Of a stretch of 64,000 nt of DNA, positions 17,851 to 20,638 are shown piece after piece. This DNA comes from Maridesulfovibrio ferrireducens (GTDB lineage Bacteria; Desulfobacterota; Desulfovibrionia; Desulfovibrionales; Desulfovibrionaceae). Where the stretch lies: NCBI RefSeq assembly GCF_016342405.1, contig NZ_JAEINN010000008.1:1-64000 (forward strand), read 5' to 3'. The notes under the pieces were generated by a model that ran no database searches, was not told where the DNA came from, and saw nothing but the letters and a program-made list of their open reading frames with translations. Positions within the stretch are counted from its first letter, which is position 1. Each line of letters starts with the position of its first letter. The position numbers and the translations under genes were made by a program.

Positions 17851-17963
17851 TGTTTAATTACAAAATGTTTCTTGATTCCCTTGGCAGGAACCTCTATATA
17901 AAGTTTGATTTTGTTTTTTAGTCTTTTAAATAAAAATAACACGCATTGCTCAGGACGGATAGA

Positions 17964-19391
17964 ATGAAACGCAACATTTTTCTTTTGTTTACGTTAATCT
18001 TTTTACTTGCGGCGGCTACAGCTTCCTTTGCTCAGCAGCTTCAAGGTGAAGGTCAACTCGGGGAGGCTAAAGCTCCCGTCTCCATGGAACAAGCTACAGA
18101 ACAAGTTCCGCAGGCTGTTAGCAAGGAAGAGGAAACAGCTGATTTAACTCTTACTCTGGAAGAATGCGTTAATATGGGTCTTAAGCAGAATCCGACTATT
18201 ATCGCAGCGCGCAAACAACTCATGGCTTCCGAAAGCAGTGTTGAATCTCAGCGCGGTCAGTTCGGGGCAGGAATGAAGTTGAAATACGGATATACTCATT
18301 CAGGTGATCAGCCTAGATCCGGTGCTATGCCGACCGATTACCAGGATAAATGGGGACTCGGCATTAATGTCAGTCAGCCGATTTTCATGGGATTTGAATT
18401 GCTTTCAAAGTTCCAGAAAACAAAGCTTCAAAGAGAACAAAGTGATGCCAGCCTTTATAATGCAGAATTGATTCTGATTAGAAATATTCAGGAAGCATTT
18501 TTGACATTGTTGCAAGGACGGATGGAAGTAAAAAGTAATCAGGATTCTGTTGCACGACTTAAATCTCAGCTTGATGTTATTCAGGCTTTTTATCAGGTAG
18601 GACTAAGACCTAGGGTTGACGTTTTGCAGGCTGAAGTTGAACTTGCTACAGCTGAGCAGGACTTGCTTAAAGCTTCAAACTCCGTTGCTTCAAGGGTTGC
18701 AAGGTTGAATACGTTGCTTAATCTTCCACTTGAGAAAAAAGTTAATTATTCTGGAGAACTTACCTATCTGCCTTTCTCGATGACTCTGGATCAATGTATC
18801 ATTAAAGCTGACAAGGATCGTCCTGACCTGCGAATTGCTATGAAGGCGATTAAGATTTCAGAAGAAGATGTTACAATTTCCGAAAGTTCTTTTTATCCTA
18901 AACTTACTGCGGATTTCAATTACAACAGTGCTGGCGGAGATCCTTCCGTAAGCAAGAATAGATATAATTATAAAAACCGTTCTGATTCTTGGGACGTCGG
19001 CGCCAATGTTAATTGGGATTTCTTTAACTGGGGCGCAACCTACTACGATGTGCAGAGAGCTAGTGATAATGTAGACAAGATTAAGGCTGAGTATGACAAT
19101 ACAAGACTTGAAGCTTCCTACGAAATCAAAGATCAGCTTTTGAGCCTGAAAGCCTCGGCTGACAGAATCGGTGTTGGTCGTAAATCTGTTGAAGCCGGTC
19201 GTGAAGGTTATAGAATGGCTATGGCCCGTTATCAGGCTCAGGTCAGCACAAACAACGAAGTTCTGAACGCTCAGTCCAGACTAAGTGCCAGTGAAGCCCA
19301 GCTTATTGAGGCGCTGGCCGACTATCAGGTTGCACTTGCAAGGCTGTTTGTTGCAATGGGAACTAAGAATCCTTCGCTTACAACTAATTAA
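17964..19391 (+). CDS. TolC-family outer membrane efflux protein
   Basis: 475 residues from the ATG at 17964 with a signal peptide ending ATASFAQQ. Two repeated OEP halves follow, each with long helices: LTLEECVNMGLKQNPTIIAARKQ opens the first and LDQCIIKADKDRPDLRIAMKAI the second. GVGRKSVEAGREGYRMAMARYQAQVSTNNEVLNAQ is the diagnostic closing helix. It would form the trimeric channel-tunnel for export. No inner-membrane pump or adaptor gene is adjacent. A terminator follows. Confidence 0.9.
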   Translation: MKRNIFLLFTLIFLLAAATASFAQQLQGEGQLGEAKAPVSMEQATEQVPQAVSKEEETADLTLTLEECVNMGLKQNPTIIAARKQLMASESSVESQRGQFGAGMKLKYGYTHSGDQPRSGAMPTDYQDKWGLGINVSQPIFMGFELLSKFQKTKLQREQSDASLYNAELILIRNIQEAFLTLLQGRMEVKSNQDSVARLKSQLDVIQAFYQVGLRPRVDVLQAEVELATAEQDLLKASNSVASRVARLNTLLNLPLEKKVNYSGELTYLPFSMTLDQCIIKADKDRPDLRIAMKAIKISEEDVTISESSFYPKLTADFNYNSAGGDPSVSKNRYNYKNRSDSWDVGANVNWDFFNWGATYYDVQRASDNVDKIKAEYDNTRLEASYEIKDQLLSLKASADRIGVGRKSVEAGREGYRMAMARYQAQVSTNNEVLNAQSRLSASEAQLIEALADYQVALARLFVAMGTKNPSLTTN

Positions 19392-19410
19392 GAAAAAAAC
19401 ATGTTATTCT

Positions 19411-19446
19411 AAAGCCGGCTTCCGTTATGGAATCCGGCTTTTTTTA
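19411..19446 (+). terminator. Rho-independent terminator after the TolC gene
   Basis: An 11-bp stem (agccggcttcc and ggaatccggct, about 19412-19439, with a 1-base bulge) is followed by a 9-base T-rich run. Confidence 0.85.
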
Positions 19447-19459
19447 TTAAGGGGGCGCC

Positions 19460-19690
19460 ATGGGTGGGGGGAGAAGACTTTCATCAGACTTGGGAAGTAT
19501 TAATAATACTGCTAAGTCAGGGATGATTTGTAAAGATTGCGGCGGAGAACTATATACGCGTCGGGGTTGAACCGGAGTTTCTTTATGTTGCAGGTCTTGC
19601 GGCAAACGGTATAGTGTTGCGGAATATGCGAAGTTTATTGATGATGACTTCGAAGAACAAATGGCTAATGTTTCGATGAACAGATTATAA
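19460..19690 (+). CDS. Dual-CXXC small selenoprotein (in-frame TGA read as Sec)
   Basis: 76 codons from ATG 19460 (preceded by aaggggg) to TAA 19688-19690, with one in-frame TGA at 19568-19570, codon 37. Before the TGA is MICKDCGGELYTRRG with a CxxC pair; after it TGVSLCCRSCGKRYSVAEYAKFIDDD with a second CxxC; both sides read as one protein. This matches the known dual CXXC motif small (seleno)protein family of Desulfovibrio and relatives, in which the TGA site is Cys or Sec. Directly after the TGA is a hairpin with a GGTCT loop, like the fdhF SECIS. A shorter start at ATG 19523 (MICK) would fit the family's usual N-terminus but has a poor binding site. Conventional gene calling would miss or truncate it. 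Function unknown, presumably redox or metal binding. Confidence 0.85.
19571..19610 (+). promoter_or_regulatory. Bacterial SECIS-like hairpin
   Basis: Immediately after the TGA, tgttgca (19586-19592) pairs with tgcggca (19598-19604), seven consecutive pairs, closing on the loop ggtct (19593-19597); accg (19571-19574) pairs with cggt (19607-19610) at the base. The ttgcaggtct core is identical to that of the E. coli fdhF SECIS, and the loop starts 22 bases after the TGA, inside the normal range for SelB recognition. Confidence 0.8.
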
Positions 19691-19699
19691 TGAGGATTT

Positions 19700-20638
19700 A
19701 TGACTTTAAAGCTTAAAAAGCCGATGATCATTTTTGTTCTTTGTTTTTTGTTTATGATTTGCGGTGTTGTTTGCAGTCTTGCTTCAAGCTCGGCAGATTA
19801 TGATGCTTGGGCGCCATTAAAGGACAGGCTGGTCAATGACGGGTTTAACAGAGAATATATAGATACGGTTTTTTCTGCCGGAACAATTAAATATGATTCT
19901 GGTATGATGACAAGAAAGATGAAAGTTCTGCTTCATCGCAGATTCGAGCCATCGGCTAAAAAAATAGCCCGTGAAAAAGAATATGATGATAGATATGTGG
20001 GACCGATTCTTCTCGCCGGAGCTTATTCATATCTGCGTGAAAATTTCGAAGTTCTTGTTAAAATAGATAAAAAGTACGGGGTGTCTCCCTCTGTTTTAGT
20101 CGCATTGCTGCTGGTTGAAACAAAACTTGGACATACCCTCGGCAATTCGCCTGCCTTTAGCAACCTTGCCAATATGGCTGCCAGTCCGGATCCTATGAAG
20201 TTTTTTGATGAGCTGGGGCATTCTGATCTTGGTCCTGAGGATATGGTATGGCTTAAAAAAAGAACTAAGCAGAAGGCTGATTGGGCTTATAAGGAGCTGT
20301 CAGCTCTTTTAAAATTTTCTTCCACTAATTCTCTTAATCCGTCGGAAATACCGGGGTCACCATACGGAGCTTTCGGTATCTGTCAGTTCATGCCGACGAC
20401 TGCAATCAGTTATGCTGTTGACGGGGATATGGATGGCCGGGTAGATTTGTTCAGTAAGGACGATGCCCTCGAAAGCATGGCAAATTTTTTGAAAAAGCAT
20501 GGTTGGAAAAGCTCGCTCAGCAAAAAGAAAAAACTAAAAGTTATCTATCGCTATAATCATTCAATGGTGTATGCCCGTACAATTTATGAAGTTGCTGTGC
20601 AACTGGATAGCATTCGGTCAACTTTCGGACCTGAATAA
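19700..20638 (+). CDS. mltB: Membrane-bound lytic murein transglycosylase B-like
   Basis: 312 residues. A signal segment (PMIIFVLCFLFMICGVVCSL) leads into an SLT_2 domain: the catalytic Glu lies in LLLVETKLGHTLGN, and GAFGICQFMPTTAISYAVDGDMDGRVDLF is the second family hallmark. It cleaves peptidoglycan glycan strands to 1,6-anhydro products in the periplasm. A Cys in the leader could allow lipidation but no clear lipobox is visible. It starts 9 bases after the selenoprotein stop, so the two are probably co-transcribed. Confidence 0.9.
   Translation: MTLKLKKPMIIFVLCFLFMICGVVCSLASSSADYDAWAPLKDRLVNDGFNREYIDTVFSAGTIKYDSGMMTRKMKVLLHRRFEPSAKKIAREKEYDDRYVGPILLAGAYSYLRENFEVLVKIDKKYGVSPSVLVALLLVETKLGHTLGNSPAFSNLANMAASPDPMKFFDELGHSDLGPEDMVWLKKRTKQKADWAYKELSALLKFSSTNSLNPSEIPGSPYGAFGICQFMPTTAISYAVDGDMDGRVDLFSKDDALESMANFLKKHGWKSSLSKKKKLKVIYRYNHSMVYARTIYEVAVQLDSIRSTFGPE

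Follow-up and report, generated by a model that had tools for sequence, protein, structure and literature searches.

A TGA-interrupted gene of Maridesulfovibrio ferrireducens that almost certainly encodes a further copy of a known small dual CxxC selenoprotein

Small proteins with two CxxC motifs form a selenoprotein family that is already curated by NCBI and in print. The NCBI annotation library contains model NF041197 for it ("dual CXXC motif small (seleno)protein"), and the review PMC13188914, in its passages on the family, gives NF041197 twice: as OS_HP3 (motif RxU), which is traced there to a 2007 study of an Olavius symbiont, and, with deep-Sep as the source (PMC12013277), as hypothetical protein DW (motif GxU). 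OS_HP3 also appears in PMC9312934; in the relevant passages the two names are not cleanly apart, SMF39960.1 standing under OS_HP3 in PMC9312934 and under DW in PMC13188914. Where they speak of the family, the passages concerned call it a hypothetical or small protein (PMC13188914, PMC9312934, PMC12013277). Our literature search found no paper on selenoproteins in Maridesulfovibrio, and no paper joining zinc ribbon, selenocysteine, SECIS and Desulfovibrio.

Here we analyse a gene of this kind in a stretch of 64,000 nucleotides of M. ferrireducens DNA (the window), for which a preliminary description had proposed a selenoprotein hidden by an in-frame TGA. In what follows, Sec and Cys forms are copies with TGA and with a cysteine codon, respectively, at the position in question.

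The reading frame, its family and the TGA codon

The features of the gene are as follows.
19460-19690, plus strand: predicted NF041197 selenoprotein gene, 76 residues plus stop, Sec as residue 37 (translation with TGA as U; NCBIfam match)
19568-19570, plus strand: TGA codon, predicted to be read as selenocysteine (column of TGA or Cys codons in relatives)
19529-19540, plus strand: first CxxC, residues 24-27 (translation, family alignment)
19589-19600, plus strand: second CxxC, residues 44-47, its codons doubling as part of the SECIS stem-loop (translation, pair table)
19450-19455, plus strand: Shine-Dalgarno-like aggggg ahead of the ATG at 19460 (sequence reading)
19676-19687, plus strand: conserved C-terminal tetrapeptide MNRL (comparison of clade A endings)

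The frame runs from the ATG at 19460 to the TAA at 19688-19690 and is interrupted solely by the TGA at codon 37. Translation bore out the proposed 76-codon frame with CxxC pairs on either side of a single TGA, the read-through product being MGGGRRLSSDLGSINNTAKSGMICKDCGGELYTRRGUTGVSLCCRSCGKRYSVAEYAKFIDDDFEEQMANVSMNRL. Note that the window holds 118 frames with one TGA (at least 60 codons, with at least 20 codons on either side of the TGA), and that 4 of the 118, this gene counted in, have GGTC 18-30 nt behind the TGA; the other three looked like noise by eye. The frame and a hairpin by themselves would not be convincing evidence for selenocysteine. What takes the selenocysteine reading well beyond chance is a family match that extends to either side of the TGA, a column of TGA or Cys codons in the relatives and a hairpin found mainly in Sec forms.

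The family named in the preliminary description, dual CXXC motif small proteins with Cys or Sec at this place, was the correct one. The read-through protein matched NF041197 with 78.3 bits over the full profile (1-53), the curated cut-off being 40 bits, and the half behind the TGA scored 55.5 bits alone, again above the cut-off; like the proteins that define the family, it has Sec or Cys, here Sec, between two CxxC motifs. Matches at E 0.001 were found in 50 of 58 related genomes (above the cut-off in 47/58), and in a wider sample of the phylum in 112 of 395 genomes (88 above the cut-off). The plasmid search gave no match to the family, and among phages, for which PHROGs profiles only were searched, there was one weak match of unknown function (E 0.00043). 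The related genomes yielded 56 copies, every one of which continues through the codon in question, with TGA (42 copies) or TGC/TGT (14 copies) in the same column; homologues that end at or before this codon were thus not seen.

These results bear on the simplest alternative, that the TGA is a true stop and that the gene gives a 36-residue peptide with a decayed remnant behind it. The standard code does end the frame at codon 36, and the hairpin taken alone is not significant (see below), but the half behind the TGA passes the family cut-off by itself, and the same TGA is kept in 42 of the 56 copies. Moreover, third-position bias carries on after the TGA, which is the sole break of the frame. 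We regard a true stop as extremely improbable. The same holds for the idea that the coding strand is the minus strand, on which a 94-residue frame (19447-19731) spans the region. Such a frame is indeed there, it exceeds 76 codons, and its third positions coincide with those of the plus frame, so codon-position bias decides nothing between them and was dropped as an argument. However, in the same register over the 53-codon match only 10 of the 56 copies keep it open, within the genus only 2 of 17 genomes do so (that of the window and G005, a near twin), and the curated family is read from the plus strand; there is next to no chance that the minus strand is the coding one.

The 56 copies were split by eye into two clades. 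Clade A, which includes the window gene, comprises 48 copies (34 Sec and 14 Cys), all 48 of which end in x-[NDS]-R-[LIVFM]; clade B comprises eight (L065-L072), all with TGA and all eight lacking this ending. Alignment of 34 clade A sequences out of 48 shows no variation at the first Cys, at either Cys of the second CxxC, at the Sec/Cys column or at the penultimate Arg, and hardly any at the second Cys of the first CxxC. With R35-G-U37 and its dual CxxC, the window protein fits the RxU motif given for OS_HP3 in the published passages and shows no essential difference from it, being a copy from another species. Clade B copies, in which Sec likewise lies between two CxxC motifs, have G two residues before U, the motif given for DW, and on this motif we infer that the eight are DW; the window protein differs from them in its RxU and its C-terminus. 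Six of the eight clade B copies share a genome with a clade A copy.

We also looked for selA, selB and selC, the absence of which would have spoken against selenocysteine. In the organism's own genome selA (607.6 bits), selB (374.2 bits) and tRNA-Sec (80.1 bits) are all present above their cut-offs, as is selD (330.7 bits). (This selD, on contig C1 at L076:1486-1800, has an in-frame TGA of its own at residue 15, in the context SAGUAAK, and is very likely itself a selenoprotein gene, to judge by its sequence.) Among the related genomes, tRNA-Sec was found in 55/58 (E 1e-9) and selB in 54/58 (E 1e-70). All genomes with a TGA copy (37/58) have both, if partial selB matches in G019 and G051 are counted. 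Clade A Cys copies come from 14 genomes, 12 of which have both; G023 has neither, and G029, a fragmented assembly, gave no selB match.

Taken together, the family match, the TGA/Cys column, the selenocysteine machinery and a hairpin kept mainly in Sec forms support the proposal that the TGA specifies selenocysteine. From these sequence comparisons, the gene is almost certainly a genuine selenoprotein gene of the published family, and decoding of its UGA as selenocysteine at residue 37 can be predicted with high confidence. The preliminary description was right in its observation and its main interpretation; what it described is one more copy of a selenoprotein family already known and, as such, rather ordinary.

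The hairpin behind the TGA and its imprint on the protein

In bacteria, SelB carrying Sec-tRNA binds a hairpin just behind a UGA and selenocysteine is inserted there. In the window gene the corresponding element would be the following.
19586-19604, plus strand: candidate bacterial SECIS apical stem-loop (fold; conservation of core pairs in Sec versus Cys forms)

The stem (19586-19592 with 19598-19604) has 7 pairs, 2 of them G-U, and encloses the loop GGTCT (19593-19597); the whole lies 16 to 34 bases behind the TGA. The hairpin is present as it had been described, and the likeness of its core to that of the E. coli fdhF SECIS was confirmed, E. coli fdhF containing gttgcaggtct, a string across stem and loop that is common to both. 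The loop starts 23 nt after the TGA in the window gene as against 19 nt in E. coli fdhF, and the protein that hosts the fdhF element is unrelated to the window protein. As in bacterial selenoprotein genes generally, there is a stem-loop behind the UGA with G in the apical loop, although as a single sequence it is not significant: its fold was no better than those of shuffled sequences (z 0.03; 93/200 shuffles at least as good), and Rfam gave no SECIS match at either the gathering or a relaxed threshold.

When the stem of the window gene was projected onto all copies, its five core pairs were found in 31/34 clade A Sec forms and in 3/14 Cys forms (Fisher p 4.6e-6), and the GGTC loop in 24/34 and 2/14, respectively (Fisher p 4.8e-4), both tests counting related sequences as independent ones. 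The full set of 7 pairs is present in only 17/34 clade A Sec forms, and individual core pairs persist in many Cys forms (2 to 5 of 5). Paired changes occur at two neighbouring pairs, one of which goes from G-C to A-U in 6 copies and to U-A in 1 copy, and the next from C-G to U-A in 5 copies. Among the Sec forms of clade B, the core pairs are present in 6/8 and GGTC in only 2/8. By this mechanism, SelB with Sec-tRNA would bind the hairpin and insert selenocysteine at residue 37.

Codons of the second CxxC make up part of the stem, so the RNA sets limits to the protein sequence. Among the 14 Sec copies of the genus, it is the third codon positions that vary most on either side of the TGA, with less change in the hairpin stretch: third-position differences per codon are 0.64 before this stretch, 0.38 inside it and 0.47 after it. 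The residues inside the second CxxC are RS or GS in 24/34 Sec copies as compared to 2/14 Cys copies, and those around it are R..G, C..G or Y..N in 29/34 Sec copies as compared to 6/14 Cys copies, the latter all R..G. It is conceivable, if a little short of probable, that the hairpin dictates the residues in and around the second CxxC, that this constraint is relaxed in Cys copies and that the family has exchanged Sec and Cys repeatedly within the genus. The constraint of RNA on protein and the scatter of Sec and Cys forms in one genus are a modest extra to the family assignment.

Gene neighbourhood and Sec/Cys exchange in the genus

The gene is flanked on the same strand as follows.
17946-19391, plus strand: outer membrane efflux protein (TolC-like) gene, an upstream neighbour outside the system (Pfam OEP, 216.9 bits)
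19411-19441, plus strand: terminator-like hairpin with T-run between the efflux and selenoprotein genes (fold)
19700-20638, plus strand: lytic transglycosylase (SLT_2) gene, separated by 9 nt from the selenoprotein stop (Pfam SLT_2, 179.6 bits)

The transglycosylase had been called an operon partner. Within the genus the linkage stands: the transglycosylase gene lies downstream and the TolC-like gene upstream in 17/17 genomes, as they do in G020, which belongs to another genus, and the transglycosylase start follows after 3 to 18 nt in 16/17 (in G011 no start was found). In G020 the selenoprotein and transglycosylase genes overlap by 41 nt. The two genes are probably co-transcribed in the genus. 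Elsewhere the arrangement proved unstable. In 20 clade A neighbourhoods outside the genus, surveyed with crude ORF calling up to 8 kb on each side, the transglycosylase gene adjoins the selenoprotein gene in G020, lies on the opposite strand in G031 and has a match at greater distance in G024. The linkage is thus one of local synteny, and the transglycosylase is no general partner. Neither these 20 neighbourhoods nor 7 of clade B contained a widely shared close neighbour at a fixed place, and no conserved neighbour hinting at function was found among the neighbourhoods surveyed. (The largest cluster of neighbours, from 8 genomes, was set aside, its representative looking like wrong-frame GC-rich ORFs; the other clusters span at most 4 genomes.)

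A consensus scan for terminators did not list the hairpin at 19411-19441, which it probably missed owing to a mismatch in the stem. The gap between the efflux and selenoprotein genes (19391-19460) is 68 nt in the window and in G005, compared to 88-136 nt in the other 15 genomes of the genus. The stretch from terminator to start codon is short in the window; in several other genomes of the genus it contains an AT-rich, tttatat-like piece. With so short a stretch, transcription of the window gene may depend on read-through.

The genus has the Sec form in 14/17 genomes and the Cys form in 3/17 (G001, G010 and G013). These three retain tRNA-Sec and selB, and they are dispersed on a tree built from two neighbouring proteins, with 6 of its 15 inner branches open. 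Remnants of the hairpin persist behind their Cys codons: G010 (copy L020) has all 5 core pairs as well as the GGTCT loop, G001 has kept the core pairs and lost the loop, and G013 has kept 4 of 5 core pairs. The sequence of the G010 copy suggests a likely recent change from Sec to Cys. Four changes were counted on the tree when the Cys outgroup G020 was taken in. The direction from Sec to Cys is favoured by the scattered positions of the three Cys species and by what is left of the SECIS in G010, and we tentatively suggest, with number and direction unsettled and the balance tipping slightly the other way, that several Sec/Cys exchanges, mostly from Sec to Cys, took place in this one genus in species that kept tRNA-Sec and selB. 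In the relevant passages of a 2006 survey, Sec-to-Cys changes are described as few and mostly confined to FdhA and SelD, and SECIS remnants and Sec-to-Cys changes are recorded in other families (PMC1794560).

Predicted fold and possible role of the selenocysteine

At 76 residues and with two CxxC knuckles, the product would most likely be a zinc ribbon. Structure models, made for three sequences, were weak (mean pLDDT 61 for the whole protein and 71.2 for the core). The core model has strands at 9-15 and 18-23, with the Sec column, 16, in a two-residue turn, and a block pLDDT of 83-88 over residues 1-30. Zinc ribbons of RNA polymerase subunits and topoisomerase I were among the top Foldseek matches (rmsd 1.2-1.7 over 31-34 columns); no Foldseek match reached E 0.001, the best E in the search that gave these alignments being 0.22. 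A profile search of solved structures gave weak matches to 2jrp, a putative cytoplasmic protein (E 1.8e-5), 2jne (YfgJ; E 4.5e-4) and HypA (E 0.0029), and RPC10 matched weakly by profile (E 0.37). Zinc ribbons of RPB9-type RNA polymerase small subunits and of topoisomerase I have two knuckles and a beta hairpin, features that the weak model of the window protein appears to share; we know of no case among them with Sec between the knuckles. On these models the window protein probably adopts a zinc-ribbon fold in which Sec is placed at the turn of the hairpin. Three clade A Sec copies (L058, L061 and L063) have lost the second Cys of the first CxxC, which reads CSHE, CPHD and CNHG, respectively; a zinc site in these would lack a ligand or recruit a different one.

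In the selenoprotein families that have been surveyed, Sec is mostly a redox residue. With the selenocysteine at a beta-hairpin turn between the knuckles, a free, redox-active selenol is likelier than a metal ligand, and the models lead us to favour, with some reserve, a redox role. Alternatively, the Sec of this selenoprotein could bind a metal, for instance during metal transfer, rather than act as a redox centre. Cys does replace Sec in a quarter of the copies (14/56), in the three copies with an incomplete first CxxC another ligand might serve, and HypA, one of the weak profile matches, is a nickel incorporation protein; however, in the weak model the Sec column falls in the turn, at a distance from the knuckles, and the prevailing role of Sec elsewhere also argues the other way, so we consider a metal ligand unlikely. 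Apart from the selenocysteine, the conserved C-terminus ending in Arg-[Leu/Ile/Val/Phe/Met] may serve as a docking site.

These findings confirm that a selenoprotein gene masked by an in-frame stop can be recovered through careful reading of the sequence. The occurrence of scattered Sec and Cys forms in closely related species would make the use of selenium at this site testable and, if the exchanges suggested here are real, the family would offer a natural experiment on the reasons for which bacteria retain or give up selenium at a single site in a small zinc-ribbon protein.
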